Below, one piece after another: positions 29,794-64,000 of a stretch of DNA of 64,000 nt (positions within the stretch are counted from its first letter, which is position 1; each line of letters begins with the position of its first letter). The position numbers and the translations under genes were made by a program. Under the pieces are notes generated by a model. That model was not told the origin of the DNA and made no database searches. It saw only the letters and a list, made by a program, of their open reading frames with translations. The DNA comes from Phoenix dactylifera (lineage: Eukaryota; Streptophyta; Magnoliopsida; Arecales; Arecaceae): positions 1,322,001-1,386,000 of the forward strand of contig NW_024067681.1 in the NCBI RefSeq assembly GCF_009389715.1. The letters run 5' to 3'.

Positions 29794-32700
29794 ATGGCGC
29801 TTCTCTCTGCCAATCTCCTGGCCCCAAATATTACCCTACTCCCCTTCAATCCCCCCTCCTCCCACCTCCCAAGAAACCCTACCCTCCTCCCCAGCTCCCT
29901 TCAAAAGTCTCTTCCAAACCCCCCTTCTCACAACCGAACTGCCGTCGCCGCCTCTTCTTCCTCCTCCTCGTCCTCCCCAGCCGCCGCCGCCGCCGCCGCC
30001 GCCGCGGCTACTGACCTCCATCCCCCGGAGAAGAACATCAAGTCCCGGGAATCTCGATCCAGTCCGGATCCCCCTCGCGCCTTTTCAATTCCGATGTAAA
30101 ATTTTATACCAATGCATCTAATTTCTTCCCACAAATTCCAGACTGGGAAGCGTTCGCGAGGCGAGTTTCCGGTGAATGGGATGGCTTCGGAGCCGAATTC
30201 ACCGCTGACGGGAAGCCTGTCGAGCTCCCGGAGGCGGTCGTCCCCGAGGCCTTCCGGGAGTGGGGGGTCCAGCTCTTCGACTGGCAGACCCAGTGCCCGA
30301 CCCTGGCCACCGATGCAGGTGACCCCGTCCTCTCCTACAAGCTCATCAAGCTGCTTCCGACCGTGGGATGCGAGGCCGACGCCGCCACGAGGCACAGCAT
30401 CGAGGAGAGGGTCGCCGGGGGCACCGGCAATAAGGTTTCGGCTTTCGGCTATGACTCGAATGGTTGTTATGTTGCAGTATCGGCTTTGGAGGGTCGGAAT
30501 GGGCGGAGATTCTTGGAATTGGAGCACTGCTTGGTGGATCCTGGGAATCGGGAAGCTAGGGTAAGGGTGATTCAGGTGGTTCGGGTGGATGAAGGGGAAA
30601 TGAGGTTGGAGAGTTTAAGAGTGTTTTCAGAGCAGTGGTACGGGCCGTTCCAAAATGGCGAGCAGTTCGGTGGGTGTGCCATTCGGGAGTCGGGGTTCGC
30701 TTCGACGGCTGCAGTGGGGGAGTCTGAGGTTGCTGGAGTGTGGCAAGGAACAAGCGTTGCAGTTGCTAGATTTCAGAGTGAACAAACGGTGAGTTGCTTA
30801 AGTTTTGTGTAGATTTCAGTTTTCAGTTGGATATTGGAATTCATAGTTGTGCTTGCTTCCCATGTAGTAGAAAAATATTCTAATGTTGATTTCTTCAAAA
30901 ATTTGTATCTTCGTTACTTTTGGAATGATACTTCTTGCCTGGAGCCAAGCCTGTTTCTGTTCTACATAAAGTGATCTGCTTCTGTTTCGGATTTTTTAGT
31001 TTCAGCTATATATGGTATTATAGGTTTTCTTTGTCCTGAATATTATGTTCTTTTTGAAATATCCGTTGGTTTTTCAATTATTTCTTAACAGTCAATCTTT
31101 TTGTGAGGATTGTTTTTTCTTATCCTTGATGGGCATAGAATCAATACTTTGTTGCTTCGAGTTTTTGTTGGGAATGATATGCGGATCTAAGTCATGAATG
31201 ATGACTTCTGCTAGTATATCTTAGGGCTTCTTTCCTTGCTTGCCAGTAAAGGACCTAAACATAGATGCTATTCGACTGTCACTCTTACCAACAATCTTTC
31301 TTACTGATCGGATCTACATTGAAGGACCTGGAACCAGTACTTGCTGTACTTTGAGGACCCAAATTGTGTCATGTGCTTGGCAACCTCCTCTCTCTGCCAC
31401 CGATCATTTGGATTGTCTCATATCATAGCTTGAATTTGGGCCTTCATGTCATTTGGATCCGATGTTTCATAGTCTTGTGGATCCTTGGAGTGATATGATG
31501 GTGGCTTCTTGCCTAATGATCAATCTCTGCTTATTTCTCTGCAATTCTTTTTTGCCTTTTCTAAAGTTATGAAGTTCGTCTTTATCAACTGCTGGACCTT
31601 TTATAGATGTCTTTTACATGTAGTTATATCAGGGTGATCACTAGCCAGATGTTGCTTCAATCTTGTTAGCCCTCCCTCCACTCTACATCATACCATTTGT
31701 GTTTTTAATGGTGCTAATTTGAAGTCATTACACCATGCTTCCACCCTATGTTCCCATATTTATTCATCTTTTTCCTTCTTGAATCCATTTTTGCAAGTTT
31801 GACGGATATCATAAACCACATTTTTTATCACTCTACATTGCATAAAGTCAATCAACACATTTTAACAAAAAACAAATTTTTATATATTTTTAGATAAATT
31901 AATAATTTATAATTTAATTTTATTTCATATATATGATAATTTATAAAATTATGTAAAAACTATGCACATTGTTGATCTAATAGATTGATTTTGATGACGA
32001 CATAATATTTGAGTATGATACTAACGATTTTGTATTTTTGGAGTGGTTAATTTGTTATATAGGAAGCTCAATGAGTTCCTATATAAATTGGGTCTCTATA
32101 CGTTCGTAAAGAGAGTGACTAGGTTAAGATACAAGTAGTTGGGAGAAGATACAATAGGTTGCAAGAAATTTCCTAAGGGCCAGTCCAACCATGGGTTAAG
32201 CATGATTGAACCGGGAAGTCATGACAAACAACCACAATGGGTTGGTCTGGGTCATCATGTTCAGAACATTGTTTAGACACTAAGAAATTCAAAGGTGGGG
32301 GCTGCAAAATGAAAATCTAAGCATCAAGGTTTTGTCTCCTAGGTGGAAAATACTTATAAACAAAAAACCATAGCATTTGGATACCACTTTCCTGTGCATC
32401 AAATAGTTCCAAATTAATGGAGGATGGAGAGCGTGAAAAGAGAGAAAGGGTAAGGATTGGTGCTAAGAGAGAGGAAGAGGAAGGACAAGGTGCTATCAGC
32501 TTTAGACATGGTGGAAAAAAGGATGGGAGTGTTGATTCATATGGAGAGATGGGTGGGTTGGTGATATTGGAATGGTGATGGAGGAAGATAGCATAGTAGC
32601 GAGGAGTGGTGGTAGAGAAATGGGCAAAACTTGCTTCTGGTGGTGGTGAAGGGCGAAGTAAAAGGTTAATAGAAAAAAAAGGGTTAAAGATTTATTTTTT

Positions 32701-34180
32701 GTTTTTTTGTTTTTTGTTAGTGTTTGTCGACAAAGTGGGGAAGGCTTGTTTGGTGAAGGGTCGAATGGGCAGCGATGAAGCTAGGGCAATGGGGCATGAT
32801 GGAATTGGAAGAGAAGTGGCTAACACGCCAAGAGGTTTCTGATAATCAAATCCTATAGATTCAATTTCATCCACACTGAAATACAAAGAGGTATGAAGCT
32901 GTCGTGCTTTCCCAAACCTAGAAGAAGAAAATATGCTTGCCTAGATACTAATCTCAACTCTGTATTGATACCTAAAACATGTTTTTAGTCACTTGGTTGC
33001 ATTTGGCGATGTTGCAGCGATGGTGAAGGTGGTGGTGGAGGTGATGGTGGTGGCGGCAGGTTTCAACGTGGATTGTGGCAATGGTGACGACTGAGGCATG
33101 GTGCTGATCATGGGCAGTTTTGGTTTTCAGAAAATCTGAAACCAGATTTTTCAGCTTTCAAAATTTCTAAAAACTTTTATTCAAAAGAAATCCATAAACC
33201 AAGAAAGAGTTTTCAGAAACTAAAAGTGGACACCAGGTTACCAAACATCATTCCTGTCTCGGTGCTATGTTTCTGGGGCAAAAAAAAAAAAAAAACTGAA
33301 AACTAGAAACTGCAACCATGTCAGACAGGTCCTAAGCTAAAGCAATTTTGTTATCTGACTCCAACAGTTTCGTCCATGTATATACATGTTCTATAAATTT
33401 TGTTTATTTTACAGGAATCCTAATAACTTTTGATGTTTTCTTTGGTCTGCATCTAACTTAAGCTTCACATTTCCAGGATATATTCCATGAACTTGTGGTG
33501 GATCGTCCAGGAAAGTCAATTAGAAATCAATTGGGCCTTGTATTACTTCCTAAACAGTTATGGTGTTATTTTAAACAAAATAAGGATGGTGAAACATGGG
33601 GGGAGGTTGGATGGTTGTTGAATCATGGTAATGCCATGACATCAAGATGTATTTTCCTCAAGGATGGAAGATTGCAGGCAAGTCTTTGAGTAATTCTTCA
33701 GTCATTTACTATTCTTTTTTCCTTCTATGCACACTGAAATGCCAAGAAGTCATCAACTTTAAGGAACTCTACGTGTTTTAATTCACAACTTCAGAATGTG
33801 GAGAAGATTGTAGTCCACACATGGAAAGGGATTCATTTTCCATCTAAATAAATTCGGTTTGCTTGAACTGGGTATAATACTTTAGGCAAATTGAAGGAAT
33901 TTCTCTAATGAATGAGTTCTGAATCAATTTATGACTTTAGGAGAAATTAACCAGCTGTTTTATGAAAGTTGACAGAGGTAGAGAAGGCATGTTTAACTTT
34001 CAAATTGATACTGTGTTGTATGATCGTTATTAATTGCTCTCTGTAATACAGATATGGCAAAATTTTTATAAACCAATTACTCTTTCTTATCTTTCAAGTA
34101 ACAAGTGCCTTCTTTCTATGGCTTTCTGTTCACAGGAGATAGCAATTGGACAAGAAATTGCAGTTTTAATGGGCATATAA
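29794..34180 (+). CDS. conserved plant protein of unknown function, probably plastid-targeted (exon-1 frame break)
   Basis: Three exons. Exon 1 (29794-30788) starts MALLSANLLAPN with a Ser/Pro/Ala-rich, acid-poor leader like a chloroplast transit peptide. The mature part (FPQIPDWEAFARRV, GEWDGFGAEF, WQTQCPTLA, LIKLLPTVGCEADAATRHS) is in a different frame that is open from 30015, so one base is missing or two are extra somewhere in about 29940-30060. Exon 2 is 33477-33677 (DIFHELVVDRPGKSIRNQLG). Exon 3 is 34136-34180 (EIAIGQEIAVLMGI, stop). Intron 1 (30789-33476) is GT-AG. Intron 2 (33678-34135) has an AG|GCAAGT donor, a classic GC-AG intron. The protein would be about 410 residues. It resembles the lipocalin-like DUF3598 group of plants and cyanobacteria, but I cannot confirm that. 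The frame break may be an assembly error, since all else looks functional. Confidence 0.75.
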
Positions 34181-36430
34181 TTCGGCATTCAATAAAGTCT
34201 GTTCTTCAAACCTTTTATTTATACTTTTATATCTGTATCTGAACCACATTCACTTATCCAAGTTGTACATAAAGTGGGGCTAAATACAATTATCTAGATT
34301 TTAGTTCACTTTGTGGCAAAATTGGAACAAAAACCACTCAATTCTCAATTTCTAGAATATGTTGACAATTAGGGCAGTTGCTGCTTGATGTTCTTACCTT
34401 GGAGGCAAAATTGGAGTAGGCCTGTTGCATCTAACGAGCAGGATTGCATGGATAGTTCATTCAACTTGGAGTGGAACAGTAAGACCACCTCATTTCTCTA
34501 TGTTCTAAGAAATCCATGCCTCTAGATTGCCAGCCCTCCTGTTCTTTGTGTGCCTGAGACTTGTTCATAATAGTTTGTGCTGCTGTTTTCTATACATAGA
34601 TTTTAAAGAGTTCTGTTCTTCGTAGCATGTGCAACACATGAGAAACATGGATCGCTGTGGTTCTTACCATCCTTTCTTGGTGCTTTTACTAGATGTTGGC
34701 CATGTTGCTAACCCTTGTGGGACATTAGTCCTATACATGCACAAAGATTTTACGAACTTTTGTTTTTGTTCTCATTACATAGCTTGAAATATTTTTCATA
34801 CTCTGAAATGCACTGAAGATATATTGGATTTTAGTAAATCCTTACGTGTTTATTTTTATTTGACATGTGGATATGGATAAAATTAAATAAATTAGGTACC
34901 AAAAATTTGAATACGAAAATGAAAACAAATTGGAGAATATAAACTTTTCAACATAACATTGCTTAGGTAATGGAGAGAAAGAACTATTTCTGTAAATTAC
35001 CATTTTGTATTGCAATTACAAGGCATCATCATGATAAAAAAATATTCAATCATATCATAAATAATTGTTAAATGCTATGAACCTTTTGCAACAATTTTTA
35101 AAACTATAGCTATACAACACAATCTTTTTCAGCAGTTACAAGGTACCATCACCACATAAAAAAAATTGGCAATAACTATAGATAATCATTGCAATATTAT
35201 AGACCTTGATGATGAATTTTAAAACTGTTACTATAGAGTATAATTTTTTTCATAGCGATCATAAGGTGCTATCATTTTTTTTAGTAGCAGTGCCGACGAA
35301 CAGCTGTAACATAATATCTTTGGAGACATTTCTTTAAATCATTACTTGAGAATATTTATGGTAATGGATTTTGCCAAGTGTTATTAAAATTTCGTGGCTA
35401 TAGAGTTTGTTGGTTATAATGCATATGACTCTAAATAGAGTGGAACAGAGAAAAATGATTCTTGTAGTCAGCCCCAACCAACTTGAGATTAAAACTTAGT
35501 TGAGTTGAGTTTAATTATTATTGGATAAATATTATTTTATATTTATTTATTTTAAATTAGTACAATATATAAATAATTAAAGTTATTTCAACTATATAAA
35601 ATATAAGTAGAAATAACAGCCAAATTTATAATAATTTTAAAGGACCTCAAACTTTAATAACATGTACGGTTGAAATAAATTAGACAGATCAAACATCAAT
35701 ATATCCAAATTTATGTCCATTCTTCTTGGATGAATATGTGTTTGAATTTGGATATTAATCAAATATTACTTGTATTTGTATTTGTTTTAGATCGATTCTG
35801 GCATGTTTCAAATATTGACAAACATGGATACTTTATGGATATAAACCATATACTAAAATTTTGTGGTCAAAATATTATTTCATGAGTATATAAATCTCCC
35901 ACCTTTGTTGTTATTTCAAAGAGCTACATAATCATATAGAAAGTTGACAAAGATATAATTGCATCCATTTAGTGAATGCTAATAATTGTTACTTTGATTA
36001 TTAAGGATATAATCCACCAAATCAAAAATGATATTGTATAGGAAGCATATTGATCAAAGATATGTTATTATTATCCCTTATTTATCTTTTGAGTTGAAGA
36101 CAGCTATATCAAATTGAATAAATTTGCAAACTCCGCTTGATACCAGATTTTTTTAAAATGTAGGTAAGGATTGGATATTGGCGGCCACACCCCAATAGAA
36201 TATATTTGATCTATATGAAAAAATTGCGATTGGTTTTGGATCAAATAAACTGATTGATTTGCTCATTATAAAATAAGATGAGCTTGGAGCTTAGGGATGG
36301 CAATCATGTCGGGTCGGATTAGGTGCAGGTCACAACAAACAATCCCAAAATTTGAACTTGACTTGTATATTAAATAGGTTGGAATTTCAAATCTGAACTT
36401 ATTATGTTTAATGATCAAATAACCTGACAC
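34181..36430. other. gene-free stretch
   Basis: AT-rich, no gene. At 34990-35280 a degenerate repeat of about 125 bp (acaaggcatcatcatgat, acaaggtaccatcaccac, cataaggtgctatcat) occurs three times. From 36294 the words tagggatggcaatcatgtcgggtcgg begin a hAT-like segment that is shared with copy 2 (49980) and therefore predates the duplication. Confidence 0.4.
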
Positions 36431-36435
36431 ACCCG

Positions 36436-37332
36436 TGTTGTGGTTCAAATCTGGCCCGAGGGTGACCACGTCGGAGGAGTCGAGGTAGCTTGAAACCAGT
36501 TCCTGCACGACGGTGTACCTGCACAAAGCCTCACCGGTGTTTCCGGTGAGGGTCCTCCGACGATCAAATTAGAGTGAGATTTTGTTGGTCCAGCTAAAAG
36601 TCCCTTAGGTGTTACCTGACGGGGCTATTTATAGTCTCTGTGGAGAGGCCCAGGTAGCGGAGGTATTGCCCGTCCTCATCATGAGAAGGGATGGCTCTAA
36701 GTTAGATGGCGCGCAGCTAAAGCTTGCTGGTAGCGTGTGGTGCCGTCCGTTCTTGGGAACGGTAAGGTGTTGACAGTCGTAGCAGGATATGGTCGGAGTA
36801 GCATGGTGCTGTCTTTGGCTGTCGTGGGCCAGCAAGCAAAGCATGACATGGCGGTGTCGCTATGTATGGCCACGTAGAAGGGTGTGGGCACGCATATGGG
36901 TGCGGCCATTGGCAGGGCCGAGCTTGTTGAGAAGTCGCATCATGCATTTGGTGAGGATGACCTAACGGATGCTAAGGTTAGTCTAACATCCCGAGTTTCG
37001 AGGTGTGCTCGGTAGAGCGCCCTGAGCTCAAGGGTTGGGGCGTATCATTGGAGAGGGCGCCCCGAGCTCGGTTGGGGTAAGTCGGCAAATACAGGAGGTG
37101 CCCCAAACTTGGTCGGGCGAGTCGGCGAATATAGGAGGCGCCCCGAACTTGGTCGGACGAATCGGCGAATATAGGATGCGCTTCAAACTTGATTGGGCGA
37201 GTCGGCGAATATCCGAGGTCAAGCTGGTTTTGGGCCGGACCGAAGTTCCGTCTGGCTAGCGTTGGTATCTATTGGGCCGAAATTGGGTGGCCCTTTGGTT
37301 GTGGGCAGGACGATCTATTTCGCCTCCCATCA
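36436..37332. mobile_element. solo LTR
   Basis: An 897-bp insertion starting TGTTGTGGTTC and ending CCTCCCATCA (TG...CA), flanked by a perfect 5-bp TSD ACCCG (36431-36435 and 37333-37337). The orthologous site in copy 2 (about 50106) is empty, so it arrived after the segmental duplication. No internal region, so it probably arose by LTR-LTR recombination. It contains a tandem array of 40-bp units at 37054-37213. Confidence 0.85.
37054..37213. repeat. 40-bp tandem repeat, about 4 units, inside the solo LTR
   Basis: Units starting near 37054, 37094, 37134 and 37174 share gcgccccgaacttggtcgg and gagtcggcgaatata. Tandem units of this kind are common in plant LTR U3 regions. Confidence 0.8.
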
Positions 37333-37809
37333 ACCCGCTTAATTTGTTCAACAGCTCGCCTAGGTACACGAGGTTAGCGAGCACGAGGGTGGACTAAGAT
37401 AATGGGGCCATGCCAAACCATAGACGGTTGAATCTACCTTAGACATTGTTAGCAGGGCTACTTAGGTAATTATCTAGAATTCCTCCCTCAAACAAAAGAA
37501 AACTAATCTATTGCTCTTAGAACATGGCAAGGGAAAAAAAAACTAGGATCCCGAACCTAATCTATTCATCCATCAAGGAATAAATCTTTTAGCTCATGAG
37601 AATGAGGGCGATGCAAATAGAAAGAAATGGAATCAAAATTCTAAAAAGACCAATCAACCTAAGTTGCGCAACTGACGAGAGGAGATGGTGGGAGTGTTGG
37701 AGGTTGAGATTGAGGAGGGGCACAATGGTTTTATACTTATGGTACTAGTTGAAGGGCACTGGGTCCTAGCAATATTGTTAGTCATAGTACACCAGCTCCC
37801 TATATACAT

Positions 37810-38676
37810 GCACCCCTCGTGTCGATGACATCCCTCCAGTCATCTCCGATCTCCCTCCCTTTCTTTCTCGTTAGTCTTTTTCCTCTTCTCCGGCGCCCAC
37901 CTACCGACCCAAAGCCCTGATCGATCTCCTCCTCCCTCCTCTTCGACGCAAGCTCCGCCTTCGCCCGAGGTGTTTTCTCCTCCTCCCTCCTTTCCGGCGT
38001 TGACCGACCGGCCTTCAAGCCTCGATCGAGCTTCGCCTCCGTCCGAGGATCTACTACATAGTGCTCGAATTTACAAAAATGAGCAGCGACTAACCCTTGT
38101 CGTTCTTAGCATCCCTCAGATGACTCTTCCCTCGGATCATTCTTTCCACATTTTTCTTATCTCATGGCATCATCAAAGGCTTCAATATCACTCGTAGGTC
38201 CAATGAATAGATATGCTATTATGCTATTAATTTTTTTTTTTTCTAATTTCAAATAGACAGAGACTCTGATTTTAAGGTGACAATTGGGGAAGTCCCCGTC
38301 AGAACAAATTGGGTGCAAGTGTTTCTCGGAACGCCCCCATCATGCGTTAAAGTGGGTGCAAGTTTTTTCTCCCTGGAAAATGATGTGAGGAGACTAGGAG
38401 CTTATGGACAACTAGGAAGACTTTGACTCTCTTTTTTTTTTTTTTGATGGAAATTAAGAAGACTTTGACTCAAGACTTCCATGATTAGGAGCTTATGCCC
38501 ACTGACCACTCATGATTCTGTTTTGATTTGTTTTATTGCCTGGTTGGTAGTGAAGATGACAAAACAGTTTCTCCATGGTATCCATGTGTTCCCTGCATTA
38601 CGGTGTACCGCCGCTTTTGCTCAATTGATGGGAAGGACTTTGACATTTTCCAAGTCTTTTCCGATATTGGTAGGCT

Positions 38677-38773
<97 letters not shown>

Positions 38774-38779
38774 TGGCAG
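37810..38779. other. copy-1-specific stretch, no gene recognised
   Basis: Absent from copy 2. 37800-38040 is C/T-rich (5'-UTR-like composition) with overlapping frames on both strands but no family signature. 38481-38680 has a short open frame that could be an upstream exon of the CACTA relic that follows. Confidence 0.3.
38682..38771. repeat. (AT)n microsatellite
   Basis: About 90 bp of uninterrupted TA dinucleotide, lying in what would be an intron of the CACTA TNPA-like relic. It accounts for the repetitive YI frames on both strands. Confidence 0.95.
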
Positions 38780-40351
38780 ACATATTCTAATGTTAGTAGA
38801 GCTGCACGAGCATCTCAAGCAGTTTCTCACACTTCAGGTACGAAGAGTTATGCGAGATGTAGAGATAAATTCGTAAGTTTTTTTCAAACTTTTTAAAACT
38901 CTACTAACATATAACACGTATTATGATATATAATTTGCCAATATGCACTTTGTGTGTGTAAATAGAAGAGCATAGGAGGAAACTTGGTGAGGTAGAGTTC
39001 TATAGGATGACTCACACTCACCGAGATGACAGCTTTGTCCTGGAGGAGTCGAGAGATATAGTTATATGTATTCATCTTTGATTTGTTTAAAATTTTTTTC
39101 ATTAGTTTTACCCTTTTTTAAATATTAATGTGATTGTTTTTTTTAGAGATATATAGGATAGGACTATATTTTTTATTTCAGAGCGCGTCGAGGGGTCATC
39201 ATCATCCGGAGCAACCAGTCGTGTCGAAGCTCAGGTCTTTGCCAAATTGATGGGTCCAGAACGTTATGGTCGAGTGAGAGGTTATGACGTTGGAGTTACT
39301 CCCACTCAGTTGTCTGCAGTGAGCCGATATATCCAACATGCCAGACAAAATAGTAGCACTGCAGAGATTTGTAGTCTGAAGACAGAGATAAAGCAGATAA
39401 GGCAGAGCCATAAGACAGAGATAGAGGAGATAAGGCAGAGCCATGAGTTAAAGATACAATCTTTGTAGGATCAGCTTGATCAGATTTCATCTTTATTGCA
39501 GAGATTTGCCCCTCCGGTAAATAACTAAATCTATTTGAATATTTTATGTAATTATAACATATTTTTGTACGAGCATAATGACTTTCGTATTCTTACTTTT
39601 TAAAGTTTTTTTTTTCTTATGGGTTGCTGATACTTCATCTACTTGTAGAGGTGATGATGTCATCGATTGCTGATACATCGTAAACTATTTTTTTAGGAAT
39701 TTAATATCTATGTTTTTAATATTTTTGAAGTACAATGCAATCAAATATAAATATTTCGAATGAAAAGCCTTTCTTTGTGATATGACTTTTGTTATTTATG
39801 TGATTGAGATTGTGTATTTGTTGTGTTGGAAAGTAATGTATACAGGTTTAAAAATTATTTTTATATTTCTTTTAAAAAAATAAACACTACTGCCGAGGCT
39901 TTTAAGCGTCGGCAATAAGCAAACCGGCGCGGAACAGGGTGGCCTTTGCCAACGCTTTCAAGCGTCGGCGAAGGCCCTAGCTTGGGCCTACGCTTTTAAG
40001 CGTTGATGAAAGTCCAACACGCTTTGGACTCCGCCAACGCTAATAAGCATCGGTAGAGTCCAAAATGGGCCGACATTAATTAGCGTTGGCGGAGTCCAAA
40101 GCGGGCCGACGCTAAGAAGCATCGGCCTATTTTTTATTTCGGCCGACGCTTATAAGCATTGGCAGACTTCAAAATGGCCGATGTTTAAAAGCGTCGGAAT
40201 CCGTCTATACTGACGTTTTCTAAAAGCATCAGAAAAAAAAATCTCACCATTACCTGCCTGACGCTTTTGTGACGATGCGAGAATTACTAATGCTTATGAG
40301 CGTTGGTAAAGATTTTAAAAAGTGCCGGAAAATATTATTTCTTTTGTAATG
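38780..40351 (+). mobile_element. decayed CACTA 3' half with TNPA/Transposase_24-like exons
   Basis: Exon-like pieces match plant Transposase_24 proteins: 38780-38872 (YSNVSRAARASQAVSHTSGT, like 'N..NR......HT.GSKSF'); about 38970-39060 (KLGEVEFYRMTHTHRDDSFV, like 'ELF..TH.RKDGTFV'); 39182-39468 (KLMGPERYGRVRGYDVGVTP, then a coiled-coil-like KTEIKQIRQSHKTEIEEIRQ); and a last exon near 39626-39672 (VADTSSTCRGDDVID). Then 39884-40330 holds dense palindromic subterminal repeats of the type ccgacgctt..aagcgtcgg. The right end TTTCTTTTGTAATG (40338-40351) is a degenerate CACTACAAGAAA terminus. Same family as 6903-7598. Confidence 0.75.
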
Positions 40352-40356
40352 TGGTC

Positions 40357-40428
<72 letters not shown>
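40357..40428. repeat. (TA)n(TG)n compound microsatellite
   Basis: About 25 bp of TA repeat followed by about 45 bp of TG repeat and a short GA run. The site in copy 2 (about 59683) has only a few TA units, so it expanded after the duplication. Confidence 0.9.
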
Positions 40429-40429
<1 letters not shown>

Positions 40430-41465
40430 AGAATTGGAATGATGGGTCGGATTGATGGATCAAATTACTTTTTGCCGCTTTTCTGTGCCCCTTTATTACC
40501 TATCAGGCCCATACATTGGTTGACAGTTAATCCGTGAACTACCCTGTTAGTAACTGTAGTATTCTCCCTTTTTTTTACCATTTTAATGTCAACTTACATA
40601 TCGATATTGTGAATTATTTCTCCAATAAGTATGTCGATTAAGCCTGCAGAAAACTGCAATCCATATCAATCCATATTTTAGGCTTCTACACCATCGCTTC
40701 ACCTTCACCTCTTATAGCTGCAAACTATGTTCTAATATTGTGTACTCTGTACTATATATTGGTAGTCATGAACATGATGTTTTGAAAATTGTGTATCAAT
40801 TTATTTAAAAGTATGTACTAGTTTACTAGATGACTATTTTGCTTGAAGTGTATCATTCAGCTAGTTGTATGTACCAATAAAAGTATGTTTTGAAATTATA
40901 TATCAATTTACCTAAAGGTATATATTGTATTATTGCTAGGTGTATATCAAAGAGGTTTATAATATATATCCAAAAGTCGATAAATGCATGTGACCTAGCT
41001 ATGTAGTAGTATGTACGGGTAAATATGATGTTCTAAAAATTATGTATCAGTTTATTTAGAGATGTGTATTGAGTTATTAGATAACTAATTTGTGTAAGTG
41101 TATATAATTGATTGTGTACTGTATACTAATGAACATCATGTTTTAAAAACTGTATATCAATTTATCTAAAGGTGTGTATTAATTTGCTAGATAATTAATT
41201 TATTTGCTGTATATTATCTAACTATGTAGTATATATATATAGAGTATGTTTTGAAAATAAGGAAGAAAAAGAATATCATATTTTTTTTAATCATAGAACC
41301 GATGATTTCATTAGTAAAAAGAGTTTTTGGCTTTTAGATTTTTTTTTCTTTGAGATGTTTTCTGGGAGAAACATGTAAAATAAAAAGCCATTTTTTTTTC
41401 TGGTCCATTTTTCTGGTCAAAAATCCCTTCCCTTATTGTACGCTCATTTTGCTTCGGTTGACTTT

Positions 41466-41897: not shown

Positions 41898-41993
41898 GCT
41901 TCGGTTGACTTTGTGCCGTGACTTGTGCCACAAATTAAGTATGGAAGGCACTTAGAATGGCCATTTTCCAGTGATTTGCTGACCTATGGTTCC

Positions 41994-52557: not shown

Positions 52558-52974
52558 ATGTATATTCACATTTGTTCTATGTGAAGCAGATAGTATTCCA
52601 TATGTAAATTTGGATGATTTGACTTGTATTCCTTGTCTTTGTAAAGATTAAATGCTTTTTGAATATTGCTGGTATTAGATGAATGAACAGATAACTTGTA
52701 AAGGTTAATTCCTTATGTTCAGCTTTTTGTAAAGATTGAATGCCTTCTTAATGTCAATGATGCTGGGACAAGATTGAATGACTTATTTTTGTCATGCTTA
52801 TGATAACTTCTCATCTTCATAAATATCATACCAGTTTTTGTTTCTTTTACATTTTTTACGATCTTGCCTTTCGTGTTTTTAATGGTTCGGTTTTTCTTAT
52901 GTTGTTTTCTTTTTTTATCATCTCTCTAATATTTTCTAGGCTTTCTTATGTTGTTTTATTTTTTTGATTTTTAG

Positions 52975-55900
52975 AGGAACTATGTCAGTTGTTGAATATA
53001 AGAGCTGAGTTCTGTGATGGAGTTAAAGGGTTCCTTGAGTTTGCATTTACTCAGTTAGAGTATTGTAGTGGTGATAAGATTAGATGCCCTTGTATAAGAT
53101 GTGACAACCAGAAATTTCTTAACCGTGATACGGTCAATGTTCATCTGTTGAGAAAGGGGTTTACACCGGGATATTCAACATGGTTTGCACATGGGGAGTT
53201 ACTTGGTGCAGTTGCTCCTGTAAGTACAAGTGCAGTAGAAGCATCCACATCAATGGATGTTGGTTGTGAACATGGTCAGCAATATAGAACCATGGTGATG
53301 GAAGCTATGGGTCCAGAAGAGGAACTTCATTTGAGAAGTGCATTTGAAGTTAATCATGAGGAAGAACCAAACAAGGATGCTGCAGATTTTTATTCTTTGT
53401 TGAAAGATGCAGAAGTACCTTTGTGGGAAGGGTGTAAAAAACACTCTAAGTTATCTGCTATTAGTCAATTATTAAATTGCAAGTCTGAATTTAATATGAG
53501 TATATCTTGCTATGATCGAATCATGAAAATAGTGAAGAATATGTTGCCGGAAAGTGAGAAGCTGCCCTCTGATTTCTATCAATCAAAGAAGATGCTTCGG
53601 AAGTTGGGGTTGGAGTATACAAGTATTGATGTTTGTGAGAATAATTGTATGCTATTCTATAAGGAAACAGAGAATTTAATTGAGTGTACTATTTGTGGTC
53701 ATCCTCGTTATAAACTCAGAAGAAATGATGGTGGTGGTAGAAGAAAAGATGTTCCTTATAGAAGGTTGCGATATCTTCCAATAACACCAAGACTTCAGAG
53801 GCTTTTTATGTCAAGCAGAACGGCTGAACTCATGTCATGGCATGTGAAGGGAGGTGATTCAGATGAGATGGTGCATCCTGCTTGTGGGGAGGCTTGGAAG
53901 CACTTTGACCGCATTCATCCATCCTTTTCTACCGAGCCTCGTAATGTTAGACTTGGGTTATGTACGGATGGATTTAACCCCTTTAGCCAATCAGCTCGTC
54001 CTTATTCTTGTTGGCCAGTTTTCGTAACAGTTTACAATCTTCCACCATCAATATGTATGAAACGACCCTACATTTTTCTAAGTTTAGTCATTTCTGGACC
54101 TAAGAGCCCTGGCAAAAGTATTGATGTCTTGCTTAGGCCTTTGATTGATGAACTTAAAATATTATGGGAAGTAGGGGTCACCACTTATGACATCTTTAGA
54201 AAAGAGAATTTTCAAATGAAGGCAGTTTTATTATGGACTATCAATGATTTTCCTGCATATGGCATGCTTTCAGGATGGAGTACGCATGGAAAGTTGGCCT
54301 GCCCGTATTGTATGGAGAACTCAAAAACATTTACACTACAACATGGTGGGAAGACTTCTTTTTTTGACTGCCATCGTCAATTCTTGCCCATGGACCATGC
54401 ATACAGATACCAAGTTGATAGTTTCTTCAATGGTAGAATAGAGACAGACCCCCCACCTCGTCGACTGTCTGGTGAGGAGTTGAAAAATAGGATCTCTGCT
54501 TTGCCTAATATAACTTTTGGTTTGAAAGCTCCTAAGCACACCATTCCTGGATTCGGTAAAGATCATAATTGGGTGAAAAGGAGCATATTTTGGGAGTTGC
54601 CCTATTGGCATACACTACTTATTCGACATAATTTAGATGTCATGCATATTGTTCGGAATGTGTTTCTCAATATATTTTACACTTGTATGGATGTAAAAGG
54701 GAAGACTAAAGATAATGTGAAAGCAAGGCAAGATTTGGAGTTGTATTGCAAGCGTCCTAAGTTGAGGATTCAATTTGTTAATGGAAAGCTAGTTAAGCCT
54801 CCAGCTTCCTATGTATTGTCCAAAGACCAAGCAATGGAGGTCTGCGAGTGGGTGAAAGGGTTAAGACTGCCTGATGGATATGCTTCAAACATATCGAAGT
54901 GTGTTAACCTGGATGATTATAAGTTTTACGGGTTAAAAAGTCACGATTGTCATGTTTTCATGCTGAGATTGCTTCCAATTGCATTCCGTGAAGTATTGCC
55001 AGCACCAGTGTGGGATGCATTGACAGAATTAAGCTGTTACTTTAGAGATTTATGCAGCACAACTTTGCGTGTCCAAGATATGGAGGTTCTTGAGAAAAAT
55101 ATTGTGGTAACTCTCTGCAAACTTGAGAAGATATTCCCTCCTGCATTTTTTGACTCAATGGAGCACTTACCTGTTCATCTAGCTTATGAAGCTAAGGTTG
55201 GGGGGCCCGTGCAGTACAGATGGATGTACCCCTTTGAAAGGTAACAATTTCTGTAAATCCATTAATATAGTTTCTTTGTATTCATTAAATTTGAGAAATT
55301 AACATATTAATCTTATTTATAGGCTTATGCATGATATAAAGCAGAAGGTAAAGAATCGAGCATCGATTGAAGGTTCTATTGTCGAGGCTTACATCATAGA
55401 AGAAATATCAACTTTCTGTTCGCATTATTTTGAGCCTTCTATACAAACAAGGTTAAATCAAGTTCCCCGTAATGAAGATGAAGGGGAGTTTGATCTCGTG
55501 GATCGTCTATCCATTTTTACTCATCAAGGTCGACCTTTTGGAAAACCTTCTGCAAGGCATTTGACTACTCAGGAGTTTAATGCTGCTGAGTTATATGTTC
55601 TTCTTAATTGTGTGGAGGTTCAACCTTTTGGAAAGTAAGTTACACAAGTACTTAATTATAATCATGCTTAAAAATGCATATGGAGTACAATATATGTGAT
55701 TATAGCTTTTGTCTTGTAGGTATTTTGATGATTATATCCGGCAATCTTGTCCAAATATAAGCCAAATTGATTTGGAAAGACGACGCGAAATGGAGTTTCC
55801 GGCTTGGTTTAGATCATATGTGAGCTGTAAATTCATAAATATAATAATAAATTAGACTTTCACTTGATTTATTCTTACGATATTATTTTTATCATGCTAG

Positions 55901-56629
55901 GTTAATGACAGTAAAAATCATGTTGATGGGCGCTTAAAGGACCTATCATATGGCCCTGGGAATAAAGTTAAATGTTATAAAGGCTACTTTGTGAATGGGT
56001 ACAGATTTCACACCAAAGAATATGGAAAGGATAAAAGAACCTTCAACAGTGGTGTGTGCATTAAGGGAAGCAGTTACAATGACTTTGAGAGTGACTATTA
56101 TGGGATGTTGGTTGACATTATCGAGTTAGACTATTTTGGGATTGGTAATAAAGTAGTGTTATTCAAATGTGACTGGTATGACAGAGATAAGGGTATGAAA
56201 GTGCATCCTCAACATGGCCTCGTTGAGATCAATTACAAACTAAGACTTCCAACCAATGATCCGTTTGTATTAGCTCAACAAGCACATCAGGTGTTCTATA
56301 CTGGTTACCCAGGTAAGAAGAAGAATCGAAGATTGTGGTGGGCAGTAATTAAGACAAAAGCTAGAGGTAGGTTCCTTCCTAGTGGGACAGAAGAAAATTT
56401 TTCTGATTTTTATCAAGAAGAAAACTACAGGATTCCTACCCCAATCTCGATGACAGATGAGCTTGATGACCCAGACATTTTGGTTGGTGTTAATAGAGAT
56501 GCAGAAGATATTGATGCAGCAGAAATTGAGTTGACAACTAACCAAATGGAAGAGGATCTTGAGGATGAAGAAGAAGATTTTGAAGATGAACAAACTGAGG
56601 AAGAGGAGCATGAGGCTGAGGAAGATTAA
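52975..56629 (+). CDS. CACTA TNPD-type transposase
   Basis: Four exons recovered: 52975-55240, 55323-55634, 55720-55819 and 55901-56629. All junctions are GT-AG with consistent phase; about 1135 residues, no stops. Order of domains: transposase-associated N-terminal domain (GVKGFLEFAF, CPCIRCDN, HLLRKGFTPGYSTWFAHGE); tnp2 transposase core (LGLCTDGFNPF, GPKSPGKSIDVLL, GWSTHGKLACPYC, HNLDVMHIVRNV); DUF4218-like (HLPVHLAYEAKVGGPVQYRW); DUF4216-like (VDIIELDYFGIGNKVVLFKC, DWYD); acidic tail ending EEDEEEDFEDEQTEEEE. It catalyses excision and reinsertion of the element. The true start is unclear: exon 1 opens at an acceptor AG with no in-frame ATG, so a short upstream exon is needed, or the ATG at 52982, which is one frame off, marks a frameshift. 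Confidence 0.9.
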
Positions 56630-56809
56630 AATACAACATGCATATTTATGAATGCTAATATAACTAATTTTAGACTTATAAATTATAGTTGTGCAGACAT
56701 GAGAAAGAGCAAAGAGAAAGCAACAGGTCCACTGATTGTTCTTTACTTTGATTGAATTTGTTGACATTTACATTGTGAAATAACTATAACTTTTTATTGT
56801 TGTGCAGTT

Positions 56810-58478
56810 ATGGCCAAGAAAAAAGGGAAAGCAATAGGTAATGGAAAAGCAGCTTTAATACTGGCTGCTACTCAAGTTCCTCCTCAACCTCCTAGGTTGC
56901 CTGAGCGTGTCGAGGAATTTCATGATGATGATGATTACATTCCTGATGGGGACATGATTGAAGAGTTGGATGCAAATGAAGAAATAAATGATGAAGAAAT
57001 GAATGGTGCAGTGCAAAATCATGAGGATACAATGAATGAGGATCAGATGAATGATGAACTTGGAATTGATCCAAGACAGAGCAATGGCCCAGAACCAACC
57101 CTTAAAGCCCCTGTTGATGCAAATGGAAAAGTGATTGTTAGGTGCAAAAGAGGAATGTATGAAAATATCACTTTCTTATATCACTAATTTGAATTTATGT
57201 GTTTGTTGCATTTAAAGTATTTAATTTATTTTCTAATGAATATTTTTTAAATTGCAGGTTTCTTGATTATGAGGTCAGTCACAAAGCTGTTGCTATCATG
57301 CGCCAATTTTTTAATGGTCCGTGGTTGTCATGGAGGGAGGTCCCTACACATGCTAAAGTTGGAATGTGGAACAAATTTGAGGTGATGTAATTAATTTATA
57401 TTTCTTATCATTAACTTTTGCCCTTAACAAATAGTAAGTCTGATTACTTGCGATCTATATATTGTTAGGAGATACACACAATTCTTCCAGGACAATTGCA
57501 TCATGTGCATGAAGTTTGGAACAAGCATTGTCAGCGACGATTGACAACCTCATTAGGGAAGGTCAGAAGCCAAAAGCTTCTGGAAGCAAAAGGAGATTTA
57601 AACAAAGCCCGTGATAAACCCCCTAATTGGATCTCTAGAGAAAATTGGAATAAGCTAATTGATATTTGGATCTCTCCAAAATGGAAGAAGAAATCAGAAG
57701 CCAACAAAAATAATAGAAACACCATGAAGAACGGTAGCATCTCTAAACACTGTGGAGGATCAATCACATTTGTGAATCATGACGAACGATTGGTACATAT
57801 CTTTATTCAATTAGATTTCTATAATAATTTTTATATTATTGTTCAGTCATCTTAAATTAGCCCATTATATGTTAATGAATTTTTTCTTTTCTCTTTTGTA
57901 GAAATTAAAGTTAGGCAGGGAGCCAACAATAGTTGAATCTTTTAATCGGACGCATAAGACAAAGCAAGGCATGGGAGGATATGTAGATAAGAGAAGTGAA
58001 GCTGTCATGGTAAGTATAATTTTTTTATGATTCATAAATATTATTGAACTTGCTCATGTTTATCTCTTGTTTGATCCACCATAATGTTTTTCTCTTCTTT
58101 TAAATCAACTGGCAGGCAAAGTATTCAGCTGAATACTCCAAAAAATATGGTGATGCCTCCACCTCAGATGCTCCTCCACGTGATTATGACTTGTGGTTTG
58201 AGGCAACTGGTGTCCCAACTCATGGCCATGTCTATGGCTTTAGTCCCCTAGAGGATCTCACTGGAATTATTGGGCAATCATCATCTGCTTCCACCTCTAC
58301 AAGTCAAGCTCCAGAGCTGTACACTCATGAAGACCTTCTACGTATTCTTGAGCAGGAAAAGAAAAAATGGCAAGAGGAGGTTCTTCAAAAGATGAGAGAA
58401 GAGATTGGCTTTGGACCAAGGCATGCAGATCGGGGGAGTAATGGTGATTCTGGTTCTGCTGATCATGCTTCATTATAA
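56810..58478 (+). CDS. CACTA TNPA/Transposase_24 (Ptta/En/Spm)-type protein
   Basis: Five exons: 56810-57156, 57258-57381, 57469-57792, 57902-58009 and 58116-58478, all GT-AG with matching phases, total 421 residues. N-terminus MAKKKGKAIGNGK, then an acidic Asp/Glu/Asn-rich segment. The conserved domain follows: FNGPWLSWREVP, MWNKFE (exon 2); WISRENWNKLIDIWISPKWKKKSEANK (exon 3); REPTIVESFNRTHKTKQGMG and YVDKRSEAVM (exon 4). The C-terminus has a coiled-coil-like LLRILEQEKKKWQEEVLQKM. Family members bind subterminal repeats and assist the transposase. It lies about 180 bp downstream of TNPD in the same orientation; in En/Spm both proteins come from one alternatively spliced transcript, so a joint transcript is possible. 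Confidence 0.9.
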
Positions 58479-59712
58479 TTGTTTTTGCCTTAGATGATAG
58501 GTCTTTGCATTCCTAGGAGGAATGAAATCTCTGTTGATCTTTATGACATATTTTTAGACTTTGATTTTGATGGATTCAGGACATGTTGATGCCAATTTTG
58601 AATGACATTTAAAATGACTTTTGCGTAATGTTGAATGCCTTTGCTATTAATGATATTATTGTTATTATTATTATGTGCCAATCAATGTACCAAATGTACC
58701 AGGTTATTAGATTGTGATCGGTGACCAAATTTTGGTTACTAAATTGTTTACCAACTATTGTGACGAGCAGTCATAAACTTAGTGACAGGATTTTGGTCAA
58801 TAAAAATTGATTTTGCTCAGCGCGTTTGTAACCAATTAGTGACCGTAAACTTATCACTAGGTCAGTGACGGGATTAATGACAAATGTAGTGACAAAATGT
58901 GTGACCATGTCTGTGACGACTAAATCTGTCACTAAAGGTCGTGACAGATTAGTGACCAAACTTGTGACCGCATTCTGTGACAAAATCAGTGACCAAGTTG
59001 CCTTCGTCACTAACTCCGCAACTGGATAGTGACGGGAAATACATAATTTCTTAAATATTTAATTCTTGAATTTGTAACGGCTTAGTGACGGCGGTTCTGT
59101 CACGGAGGTTAGTGACGGGAATCGCCGCCGTCACGGAGAATTTAGCGACGCGTGTTTTTGCAACGAAGTCAGTGACGGGAGCTCCGGTCACAAATTCCAT
59201 ATTAGTAACCGGAAACACGGTATAGTGACGGGAATCTCCGTCACTATACGCGTGTTTTCTGGTAGTGTTTTGTACTTATGGTACGTACTAGTTGAAAGGC
59301 CCTGGATCCTAGCGATATTGTTGGTCGCAGAACACCAGCTCCTTATATCATTGGCCATGGACAACGGAGAACACATCGGAGGAGGGTGCGGCGGTCAGAG
59401 TCGCACAAGATAAGAAGGGAAGATGGGAAGGAGACGGAGAGAAAGAAGAGCAAAGAATAAAAGGGTGCTCTTAAAACTCTCTAAAAGAGGTAAGTGGCAT
59501 TTAAAGCAGTAAGTGGATGCGATACAAATGGGTTAAGCCAACTTGATCCAATTATTAAATGAGTTAAGAGTCCGAAATTCAAATCCAATCCATCTAATAA
59601 GTAGATTAAACTAGGTGCAGATCGACCTTTTTTAAATTCGAATCTATTTAGTTCGAATCCAATCTATTTATTGCTGGTCATATATATGTGAATTGGAATG
59701 ATGGGTCAGATT

Positions 59713-59862
59713 TGTTGAAAAAAGAAGAATAAGAGAAGAGAATTATATTTTTGCCTATCTATTACAATGTACTAGAGTAGCCTTTACATAGAGTAGGAGG
59801 CTGATGAAGTTTGGTAAGGCCGACTAAGTTGGGCATAATCAATCAATCAATGGATTCTAACA
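59713..59862 (-). mobile_element. short solo LTR (Copia-like)
   Basis: A 150-bp insertion, minus strand TGTTAGAATCC...TTTTCAACA. Flanks AGATT and TGATT give a 4-of-5 TSD. The corresponding copy-1 site (40452, gggtcggattgatgg) is empty. The small size fits a TRIM or short Copia LTR. Confidence 0.75.
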
Positions 59863-61198
59863 TGATTGATGGATCAAATCACTTTTTGCCGCTTTTAGCT
59901 ACCTATCAGGCCCATACATGGGTTGATAATTAATCCGTTAACAACCCTATTAGTAACTGTAGTATTTTTCCTTTTTCTTTACCATTTTAATGTCAACTAA
60001 CATATCGATATTGTGAATTATTTCTCCAATAAGTATATTGACTAACCCTGCAAAAAACTGCAATCCACATTTTAGGCTCCTACACCATTGCTTCGCCTTC
60101 ACCTGCCATAGCGGCAAACTATATTCTAATATTGTGTATTGTATATTATGTACTGATTGTGATGAACACGATGTTTTAGAAACTGTGTATCAATTTATTT
60201 AGAAGTATGTACTAGCTTGCTAGATGACTAATTTGCTTGATGTGTACTATTTGGCTAGTAGTGTGTACTGATAAAATATATGCTGAAGGTATGTATTGGA
60301 TCACTGCTTAGTGTACATCAAAGAGGCTTATAATATGTACTAGAAAGTCGATGAATACATCTCACCTGGCTATGCAATATGTATTGGTGAATATGATATT
60401 CTAAAAATTATATATAAATTTGTTTGGATATATGTAGAGTCATTAGATAACTAATTTATTAAGTGCGTATCATTTGATTATATATTGTATACTAATAAAC
60501 ATCATGTTTTAGAAACTGTATATCAATTTATCTAAAATTGTATATTAATTTGTTAGATAATTAAATTATTTCGTATATATCACCTGACTATGTAGTACAT
60601 GTATATATAAAGTATATTATAAAAATAAAAATTATTATATTTGTTTTAATAGTATGACTCACGGTTTCATTAGTAAAAAAAAAATTGGCTTTTAGATTTT
60701 TACTTTGGAATGTTTCCCATGAGAAACATGATAAAATAAAAGGCACATCCTTTTTCTTTTTTTTCTCCTGGTCCCATTTCTTTCCAAAAATACACCTAAA
60801 CAAAACTCAAAAATCTCATCTCATATTGTACTCTCATTTTGCTTCAGTTGTCTTTGCGCCATTGACTTGTGCCTCGAATGAAGTATGGAGGGTACTTAGG
60901 AGCTGTTGGAAGTAGAGCTGTTGGAAGTAGAGTTGTCTGAAGTAGAGCTGTTATAAAAATCTGTTTGCTGTTTGGTAACTACATTCGTAAAGTGTTGTGG
61001 TACTTTGTTTTGTGTTTGGTAAACAAACTGAAAAAGTACTTTTGTATGGCAAAATTACCATAAAGTATATTGCATAGTGTTATACAACAGAACATAATAA
61101 AACATAACATATATCAATACATAAATATACGATATAGTATAATATTATTGTAATATAAAATAATATTATTATAATATAGCATAATAGTAATATAATTA

Positions 61199-61474
61199 TT
61201 AGAGTAAATTAATATTTGGTAATATAACATAATATTAAATTATTTTACATAACATATTAATGTATTATGATATAATGTAATATATATTATATTTATAGAA
61301 TAATACAAAAATAAAGGTATAAAATATTATAATTATTAGTATAAATTTATTTTCCATAATATAACATTATATTAAATTATTTAAAATAACATATTAATAT
61401 ATTATGATATAACGTATTATAATATTATATTTATAGTATAATACAATAATAAAGGTATAAAATATTTTAATTAT
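61199..61474. repeat. 138-bp AT-rich tandem repeat
   Basis: Two units, about 61199-61334 and 61335-61474, plus a partial third, share attag.gtaaatt, acataacatattaa and aaaggtataaaatatt. Confidence 0.8.
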
Positions 61475-62100
61475 TAGTGTAAATTAATTTTTTATCCTCC
61501 GAATGACCATTTATCTCTCTAATAATTTTTCTAGCTAGGTGATAAAATTGATTAAATGATTACTAGATGTTTAGACGAGAATCACATAGATGAAGAATTA
61601 TTTAGCATATTCTACGTGCGTACTTTAATAAGGCTTGGAATACACTTCATATAGCCTGGCACATAGTTACGTCTTCGTGGCACACAGTTTAGCCTTTCTG
61701 ACACATAGTTACGTCTTTCTGGTATATAGTTAAGTAATTTTCGTATACAGTTACATAAGGATTGAACACAATTAATCTAGCATGGTATACACATAATATA
61801 TCTTAGCACATAGTTAATCAAGGCTTGCACATAGTTAATATCCATCCTCTCTAACTTTACCTTATTCATACTTTTTTACATTGTTAACGTAGTAGCAACA
61901 AAAATACAACAAACATTCATGTTTGGTCAAATACAAAACAAAACAACATTTGGAATTGCACTGCACTCAGAAGTCAACGAGCTATAAGTTGAGAAGCAAT
62001 ATAATCATGCAGAATATCCATCTCACGGTACCCAATATTTGGCTTTGCTCTGCACTCAGTTCTTCCTTTGGTTCATTAATCTCTAAACAATCAGAAGCGT

Positions 62101-62420
62101 ACAGAGAGAGGATCTCTCTCTATAACACAGAGAGATCCTCTCTCTGTAACAGAGGGAGATCTCGCGGTCACCCGGGGACCGTGAGATCAGTAAGGGGAGG
62201 CACCGTGGACCGCGGTACTGCGGTCCACGGTGTCGCGGCTAGAGCATGGACTGCGGCTCTCTCTGTAACAGAGGATCGCGGTCACCCGTGGACCGCGAGA
62301 GGGGAGGCATCGTGGACCGCGGTGCTGCGGTCCACGATGTCGCAGCTAGAGCCTGGACCGCGATGCCGCGGTCCTGGTGCTCTTCTTCGCGGTCTACGCT
62401 CGAGGAGGACCACAGCGCGC
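62101..62420. repeat. GC-rich duplicated hairpin block
   Basis: Two related units (about 62141-62250 and 62256-62359) each carry ctctctctgtaacagagg, a ggtcaccc..ggaccg inverted pair and a 13-bp perfect stem with a 6-nt loop: 62201-62232 (CACCGTGGACCGC...GCGGTCCACGGTG) and 62308-62339 (CATCGTGGACCGC...GCGGTCCACGATG). A further inverted repeat, gagagaggatctctc/agagagatcctctctc, lies at about 62105-62140. Confidence 0.85.
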
Positions 62421-62874
62421 GAGGTCGATGATTAAAAAAAAATAATAGATTGATTTTGGAAGGTACGGAGAAGGAATAAAAATTTTTTTTCTTCTAAAAT
62501 GTGGTTCAAGAGATGCATACAAAAATAGAAAAGAAAAATATCTTTTCTACGGAAGGAAGTCTGACGGTTAGGGTTCTTTGTTCCAGTAGATTTTTAGATT
62601 TATAAAGGAACAAATTATGTAATTATTATATTTTAATATGGGCATTTTTGTCAAAAATACAGCTTTCCAATAATGCTGAAAACAGGAAAAGCTTCAAATT
62701 AAAGCTTCCCCCAAAAGTTGTTTTCAACTTTCCGTAAAAGCTAAAATAGCTTTTCAAAAAATTTATCAAATATTATTTTTTATTTACAAATATTTTTGGG
62801 GATCAGAAAGTATTTTTTGACGTTACAAAAGCTTTCCAGTCATTTTCTTCAGTGACTTTCTGAGGTATGGTTCC

Positions 62875-62888
62875 AATAAATAAATAAC
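62875..62888 (+). promoter_or_regulatory. possible TATA-like element of UGT copy 2
   Basis: AATAAATAAATAAC lies about 154 bp upstream of the ATG at 63042 and inside the short stretch still shared with copy 1. Motif-only evidence. Confidence 0.25.
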
Positions 62889-63041
62889 AACGAGCCGGCT
62901 GCCTCCGCTCCGTCTCGCGTATTCCACGCCTGGCAGAGGCTGGCTTTGGCTCCATAACCCATCTCTGCGCCGACCAATCCTTCTCTCTCTTACCTTTCCT
63001 CCGATTTCCACCCTCCTCGGTCCTCGCTCTCCCTCTCTCTC

Positions 63042-64000
63042 ATGGCTCAAGAAGAAGGCCCTCTCCGAGTGTACATCCTTCCCTTCATATGCCCCGGCCA
63101 CATGATCCCCCTCCTCGACTTGGCCACCCTCCTGGCCCTCCGCGGCGTCGCCGTCACCATCATCACCACCCCAGCCAACGAGCCCCTTGTCCTCCCCACC
63201 CTCCACCGCTCCGCCTCCCTTCCCCACCCCATCCGTCTCCTCCTCCTCCCCTTCCCCTCCTCCGTCCACCACCTCCTCCCCCAGGACGGCCAAGAAAACC
63301 TCGCCTCCATCTCCTCCTCCAGCTTCCATGGCCTCTATGACGCGACCTTCGCTCTCCACCTCCCCCTTCTTGACCTCCTCCGCCCCAGCCCCCCTGATGC
63401 CCTCATCTCCGACTCCATCTTCTCATGGTCCGCCGATGTTGCCCGAGAACTCGGCATACCTCGCCTCGTCTTCCATGGCCCCGGCCTCTTCGCTCTCACA
63501 GTCCACGACACCATCCACCTCCATTCTCCCCACCTCAGCGTCTCATCCGATTCCGAACCCTTCCTCGTCCCCGGCCTCCCACACCGCGTGGAGCTTACCA
63601 AGTCCGAGCTCCCGGAGCCCTTCCTCGTTCCGCAGTCACTTGACACGAAGAGAGATGCCGAGAAGAACAGCTTCGGCATCATCGTCAACACCTTCTTCGA
63701 TCTCGAGCCAGAATATGCTGAGATCTACATGAAAGAACCGGGCCGAAGAACATGGCTAATCGGCCCGGTGTCCGTCGTTCACAAGGACAAGAACGACCTG
63801 AGCAACCGAGGTCGGGATCCCGACGCGGATCCCGCCCGGTTGCTAAGCTGGCTGGACGCAAAGCCAGCCAGCTCCGTGTTATACGTCTGCTTCGGAAGCC
63901 TCTGCGAGTTTGGTGATGATCAATTGAATGAGATCGGCGCCGGCCTCGAGGCTTCCGGCCACCCATTCATATGGGTGGTGAGGAGGAATCTGGGTGAGAG
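63042..64000 (+). CDS. family-1 UDP-glycosyltransferase (UGT73-like), copy 2, truncated by window edge
   Basis: Open from the ATG at 63042 to the window end: 319 complete codons, no stop, no intron. Motifs: FICPGH with catalytic His20; LISDSIFSWS with the probable catalytic-dyad Asp124, absent from copy 1; RLVFHGPGLFALTVHDTI; NSFGIIVNTFFDLEPEYAEI; TWLIGPVS; SSVLYVCFGSLCEFGDDQL; HPFIWVVRRN. The C-terminal PSPG box lies beyond the window. Comparison with copy 1 predicts about 490 residues in all. Third positions are strongly C/G-rich. The family transfers sugar from UDP-sugars to small acceptors such as phenolics, terpenoids or hormones in the cytosol; the acceptor is not predictable. It is probably the functional member of the pair, but its proximal promoter is interrupted by the 60900-62836 insertion. 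Confidence 0.92.
   Translation, partial: MAQEEGPLRVYILPFICPGHMIPLLDLATLLALRGVAVTIITTPANEPLVLPTLHRSASLPHPIRLLLLPFPSSVHHLLPQDGQENLASISSSSFHGLYDATFALHLPLLDLLRPSPPDALISDSIFSWSADVARELGIPRLVFHGPGLFALTVHDTIHLHSPHLSVSSDSEPFLVPGLPHRVELTKSELPEPFLVPQSLDTKRDAEKNSFGIIVNTFFDLEPEYAEIYMKEPGRRTWLIGPVSVVHKDKNDLSNRGRDPDADPARLLSWLDAKPASSVLYVCFGSLCEFGDDQLNEIGAGLEASGHPFIWVVRRNLGE

Follow-up and report, generated by a model that had tools for sequence, protein, structure and literature searches.

A tandem segmental duplication with a UGT gene in date palm: unfilled insertion sites and uneven divergence between the copies

A 64,000-nucleotide stretch of the Phoenix dactylifera genome (the window; contig NW_024067681.1, positions 1,322,001 to 1,386,000) contains a real tandem segmental duplication: two copies in the same order and orientation, separated by a spacer of 2.7 kb. 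It is an ordinary local duplication, well preserved and with one gene lost. We consider it highly probable that a local tandem duplication was followed by divergence of the copies, loss of the UGT gene in copy 1, deletion of exons in copy 2 and insertion of transposons. Divergence between the copies is uneven, and the locus therefore gives no single clock.

Two collinear copies

Self-BLAST, run on the window alone and within 124 kb of contiguous sequence surrounding it, found ten collinear same-strand pairs of blocks (32109-44851 versus 47532-66441). Their bit scores, up to 2529, exclude chance similarity between the copies. Recurrence of blocks in the same order and orientation had been proposed in an initial annotation of this DNA and is borne out here. 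Its left limits, 32109 and 47532, were also correct, but the right limits of 43565 and 64000 fell short, since homology reaches 44851 and 66441. The copies and the self-BLAST blocks (copy 1 / copy 2, all on the same strand), with the K2P divergence of each, are as follows.

32109..44851, + strand: copy 1 of the duplicated segment (homology limits)
47532..64000 in the window, continuing to about 66441 outside it, + strand: copy 2
Block A: 32109-32740 / 47532-48169, K2P 0.051
Block B: 32731-32946 / 49026-49240, K2P 0.128
Block C: 35553-36427 / 49236-50105, K2P 0.055
Block D: 37340-37693 / 50116-50466, K2P 0.137
Block E: 37728-37805 / 59267-59348, K2P 0.144
Block F: 40450-41465 / 59864-60855, K2P 0.174, which may be inflated by the internal repeats of this block
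Block G: 41898-41955 / 60841-60899, K2P 0.175
Block H (holds the UGT gene): 41962-43631 / 62841-64585, K2P 0.123 in the UGT 5' flank, 0.032 in the UGT coding sequence and 0.082 in the 3' flank
Block I: 43634-43811 / 66059-66238, K2P 0.117
Block J: 44637-44851 / 66227-66441, K2P 0.100

A search of the genome (773,078,369 bases in 2391 contigs) returned only two strong copies of block A, both at this locus, and two weak matches (69%–73%) inside it. The sequences flanking the two copies show no such recurrence, either at 60 bases or more in the window or at 100 bases or more in the wider stretch. The duplication would have copied at least 12.7 kb, perhaps 15.4 kb (32109-47531), including one UGT gene.

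The UGT gene pair

As the initial annotation stated, the unit carries a UGT gene, but its copy 1 version is broken, which had passed unmentioned.

42139..43566, + strand: UGT pseudogene of copy 1; a 50-bp deletion shifts the frame, and there is one extra G
63042..64514 plus stop (63042..64000 in the window), + strand: open single-exon UGT gene of copy 2, 491 codons, PF00201

In copy 1, the 50 bp are missing at 42475/42476, between two TCCGCC repeats, with a frameshift as the consequence, and the extra G lies near 43463. The reading frame of copy 1 was lost through this deletion between short repeats as the copies diverged. The copy 2 gene matches PF00201 at 79.5 bits (curated cut-off 19.5), and its best solved-structure matches are 6lzx (a named glycosyltransferase) and 9x43 (UGT 73C1), with SgUGT73AM30 (26fx) near the top. 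Judged by its sequence, it is predicted to be a UGT73-like member of the UGTs (GT1). It resembles the UGT73-type plant glycosyltransferases in its PF00201 domain and its best solved-structure matches, but the nearest other genes in the date palm genome, among the matches listed, are just 50%–56% identical. No other genome match exceeded 56% protein identity among the 88 listed (87 of 223 candidates scored), so that, among these, the two copies are each other's closest relatives in the genome. Among the literature titles listed on UGT families of P. dactylifera (10 of 12), none concerns this locus.

The pair has a Ks of 0.057 and a Ka of 0.024 (474 codons). Both copies changed about equally, with 13 versus 15 changes against outgroup L018 and 15 versus 17 against L019. 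Outgroup L017 (wrong 159-codon frame) was set aside; its row gave 4 versus 7, and the three outgroups taken jointly gave 2 versus 5. The nearly equal change indicates that the copy 1 gene probably broke late or was kept alike.

Insertions and their unfilled sites

For seven insertions, the opposite copy preserves the corresponding unfilled site, which aligns once the flanks are joined. The initial annotation had regarded each copy as an empty-site record for insertions in the other, and these seven sites agree with it. Target duplications are exact at five of them and 4/5 bases alike at one, and none was found at the remaining one. These seven elements and a further stretch of copy 1 (37806-40351) are listed below; a point in place of the strand means that none was assigned.

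36436..37332, + strand, copy 1: solo LTR of 897 bp, TG...CA, flanked by the 5-bp target duplication ACCCG
41466..41897, - strand, copy 1: 5'-truncated LINE, RVT_3 (RNase H-like), 15-bp target duplication GCTTCGGTTGACTTT
43813..44636, + strand, copy 1: second 5'-truncated LINE, RVT_3, AAAT-rich tail, 13-bp target duplication ATAACACACCCAG
37806..40351, + strand, copy 1 only: possible CACTA relic, judged by eye from its CACTA-like right end and subterminal repeats
48170..49026,., copy 2: foldback element, 857 bp, 58-bp TIR (93%), internal palindrome, 9-bp target duplication AAAGTGGGG
50475..59267, + strand, copy 2: CACTA element, 8793 bp, 30-bp perfect TIR, 3-bp target duplication TTT
59713..59862,., copy 2: solo-LTR-like insertion, 150 bp, TG...CA, flanks AGATT/TGATT (4/5 alike)
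60900..62833,., copy 2: high-copy repeat insertion, recognized by genome matches

Of the insertions named earlier, the solo LTR and the LINE at 41466-41897 had been placed exactly to the base; the second LINE had been missed. The unfilled site of the 36436-37332 solo LTR lies in copy 2 near 50105-50116. This LTR is without an internal region and belongs to a repeated family with at least 55 other matches (40 of 1848 candidates scored). RVT_3 was detected with E-values of 1.3e-8 (41466-41897) and 8.9e-7 (43813-44636), and a reverse-transcriptase domain was absent from both short pieces. By their long target duplications, A-rich tails and this LINE-associated RNase H-like domain, they are probably LINEs.

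The CACTA relic reported for copy 1 has the right end and the subterminal repeats expected of its name. It is weakly supported: no left TIR was seen, and Transposase_24 (E-value 0.0095) was below the Pfam cut-off. The complete CACTA of copy 2 contains open frames with Transposase_21 (E-value 1.3e-85), DUF4218, DUF4216 and Transposase_24; it also harbors a direct repeat (51301-51595 / 51642-51947, 300 bp, 93.5% alike). The element at 48170-49026 is of the Mutator-like foldback type by its long terminal inverted repeat and its 9-bp target duplication, a length linked to Mutator. The 60900-62833 insertion has at least 203 matches (40 of 3263 candidates scored), no clear target duplication at its ends, and a left end shorter than that of some other copies. 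Its first 600 bp are 92%–95% alike at about 40 places among the matches listed, a likeness which suggests that this family spread recently.

At least five kinds of transposon (LTR, LINE, CACTA, foldback and high-copy repeat) have inserted, each time in only one of the two copies. Provided that the site in the opposite copy was always empty, a clean insertion postdates the duplication. A relative chronology of many transposon families had been claimed; it holds for before and after the duplication, but not for the order among the insertions. None of the delimited insertions lies inside another, contrary to the proposed dating by nested insertions, and they can therefore be ordered only against the duplication.

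The upstream gene and two probable deletions

There are two further length differences between the copies. One of them involves a predicted gene upstream of the UGT pseudogene.

Upstream gene, predicted exons: exon 1 ending at 30788; exon 2, 33477..33677; exon 3, 34136..34180, with stop
32947..35552, + strand: segment of 2.6 kb absent from copy 2, with the rest of intron 1, exons 2-3 and the 3' flank of the upstream gene
64586..66058, outside the window: segment of 1.47 kb absent from copy 1, with ATAG on both sides

In the predicted model, the frame is open across both splice junctions, and no Pfam match was found. Exons 1 and 2 are present only at the copy 1 place (genome search, two matches among three candidates); exon 3 is too short to match. 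Copy 1 begins within predicted intron 1, and the duplication would accordingly have started inside an intron of a single-copy gene. Near 30000-30100 in this gene (29647-34180), a likely transit peptide is out of frame with the main coding frame; either a small intron has been overlooked there or the assembly contains a base error.

Since the last exons of the upstream gene are predicted to lie in the 32947-35552 segment, the absence of this segment from copy 2 is probably due to deletion there, and the possibility that it is a transposon of copy 1 was dropped since predicted exons were found inside. Copy 2 joins the edges of the segment with an exact TA overlap, or with five bases including one mismatch (TAGAT/TAAAT); an insertion could also leave the imperfect overlap, and this counts against deletion. 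Copy 2 kept an open UGT gene, but the 2.6-kb deletion would have removed its duplicates of the upstream gene's 3' exons. The difference at 64586-66058 is consistent with loss from copy 1. That it was inserted in copy 2 is doubtful, since the segment is without a high-copy relative and its 24 matches besides itself are scattered and at most about 126 bases long (25 of 25 candidates scored). Both differences are better read as deletions than as insertions.

Uneven divergence between the copies

Over all ten blocks, 415 of the 5194 aligned sites differ, or 8% overall. The initial annotation expected shared blocks to diverge uniformly, which is not what was found: K2P ranged from 0.03 in the UGT coding sequence to 0.18, and the heterogeneity was strong (chi-square 140, 9 d.f., p about 1e-25 for ten blocks). 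It persisted without block H (chi-square 75, 8 d.f., p about 5e-13), and block-to-block differences remained after exclusion of CpG sites. Uniform divergence is expected of one undisturbed clock and is not a defining feature of tandem duplication. Collinearity still shows the duplication, while the spread between blocks counts against a single undisturbed duplication with one clock.

Divergence also changes within short distances.

35553..36154, no strand assigned: low-divergence tract in block C, 11 differences at 592 sites (1.9%)

This tract adjoins the part of block C from 36155 onward, with 34 differences at 265 sites (12.8%). None of 1000 permutations gave a break as strong as that at 36155, where the inspected alignment is clean and the DNA is AT-rich and non-coding. 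Blocks A and B, both in predicted intron 1, differ at 4.9% versus 11.7% of sites (p 0.0017). The longest identical runs, of 218, 124 and 123 bases, exceed the shuffled 95% limit of 109, and the top shuffled run was 158.

The chances appear about even that the whole unit is of one age and that its parts differ through uneven mutation rates, in genic versus methylated, transposon-rich DNA, together with purifying selection. The UGT coding sequence, where Ka is less than half of Ks, and the nearly equal change on the two UGT branches argue for this. Against it, the differences survive the removal of CpG sites, and no gene or element boundary was seen at the sharp break inside block C.

That same break, the contrast of blocks A and B within one predicted intron, and the long identical runs are what ectopic gene conversion would leave if it had re-homogenised the left part of block C, block A and part of the UGT coding sequence; the low-divergence tracts would then be younger than the duplication. 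We regard conversion as a real possibility that falls somewhat short of an even chance. The runs of 124 and 123 bases are below the top run of the shuffled whole alignment, and within the coding sequence alone a run of 218 bases was reached by 148 of 5000 shuffles. Two sequences cannot separate conversion from locally low mutation or constraint. The coding Ks, set against about 0.12 in the flanks, amounts to a roughly two-fold gap between genic and intergenic DNA, and a gap of about this size between genes and intergenic DNA is often reported. A fuller version, which we hold to be rather unlikely, is that the copies exchanged sequence long after the duplication, with at least three tracts including part of the UGT gene kept alike and the DNA between them drifting to 12%–17%, and that the copy 1 UGT gene broke only after the last exchange. 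The timing of this break would follow from the identical 218-base run, which lies on both sides of the breaking deletion.

Ages obtained from different blocks

At 1.3e-8, a rate for intergenic DNA, the pair would be 2-5 My old. With the palm rate of 2.61e-9 cited in the available text of PMC2270835, block A and the coding Ks would give an age of about 10-11 My, whereas five other parts (blocks B, D, I and J and the UGT 5' flank) would give 19-26 My. The earlier dating claim was too strong; the spread of ages is itself the result. It is a caution that dating duplicate pairs by a single block misleads, since the ages differ by the block used.

The accessible part of a study of maize tandem gene duplicates (PMC6118310) names gene conversion as a possible dating bias, and describes adjoining gene copies amid transposons as found here. 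In contrast to the maize duplicates, the non-coding parts of the date palm copies are still alignable, which makes breakpoints, deletions and unfilled sites recognizable. The locus represents usual plant genome evolution and is instructive in a few respects: it is preserved well enough for unfilled sites, short-repeat deletions and gene loss to be seen together.

The spacer and the origin of the junction

44852..47531, no strand assigned: spacer between the copies, with a CACTA-like end, degraded repeat pieces and a solo LTR

The CACTA-like end, CACTACAAGAAAA, begins at 44859, after 7 bp of non-homologous sequence. Shared family membership with the copy 1 relic or with the complete CACTA found no support (best word-7 E-value 0.01 or worse). 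The degraded pieces match the genome at 68%–83% (at least 39 matches besides the spacer itself; 40 of 66 candidates scored). The relatives of the solo LTR, at about 46687-47204, are closer (80%–93%), and each of the 43 matches listed apart from the sequence itself lies within this LTR (40 of 132 candidates scored). The degraded pieces, at 68%–83%, look older than the duplication, although identity to family relatives only bounds their age, and it is thus more likely that the spacer belonged to the unit from the start, as its 3' part, than that it was inserted later. No counterpart of it was found, at 60 bases or more in the window or at 100 bases or more in the 20 kb to the left and the 40 kb to the right. 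Head-to-tail adjacency consequently rests on an assumed later loss, in which the second spacer copy would have disappeared to the right of 66441. Here 84 bp are followed by an LTR element (66526-69062, outside the window) that lacks a clear coding frame; its repeats measure 679 and 814 bp, and the second includes a long AT array.

Immediately outside the two block starts, at 32108 and 47531, the bases already differ. This lends no support to recombination between repeats, and end joining or a replication error would more likely have made the junction. It is very unlikely that the duplication arose by alternative (reversed-ends) transposition of a CACTA element, with the end at 44859 as the scar. 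CACTACAAGAAAA does lie beside the copy 1 border, and, in the available text of PMC3744419, maize Ac left an element at the duplication junction. The two cases share a tandem direct duplication and the end of a class II element near the junction. Nevertheless, inspection by eye revealed no matching end at 47531, at 66441 or in the rest of the spacer, and none was present among five of the seven inverted pairs listed for the spacer; the duplicated breakpoint sequence of the model was not seen. Unlike the Ac duplications, the date palm locus is without a visible second end or duplicated target, and its element is a CACTA rather than a hAT.

An assembly artefact, with two haplotypes or mis-joined reads set in tandem, is hardly credible: the accessible text of PMC6794320 describes a highly heterozygous species and, if it concerns the same assembly, separate haplotigs, but the copies are 8% divergent overall with many insertions and deletions, their flanks show no duplication at the thresholds of 60 and 100 bases, and block A and the UGT gene (for the latter, among the matches listed) have no further high-identity match in the assembly.

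Elsewhere in the window, another direct repeat pair was observed (5853-6901/8020-9075, 88.6% identical; 7599-7995/9137-9526, 77.8%), and the nearby segment 6922-7118 resembles 39522-39729 in copy 1 (73.6%). Outside the duplication, the window also contains a PPR-DYW gene (14172-16940, + strand) and a PMI1-like gene (19807-22410, - strand).
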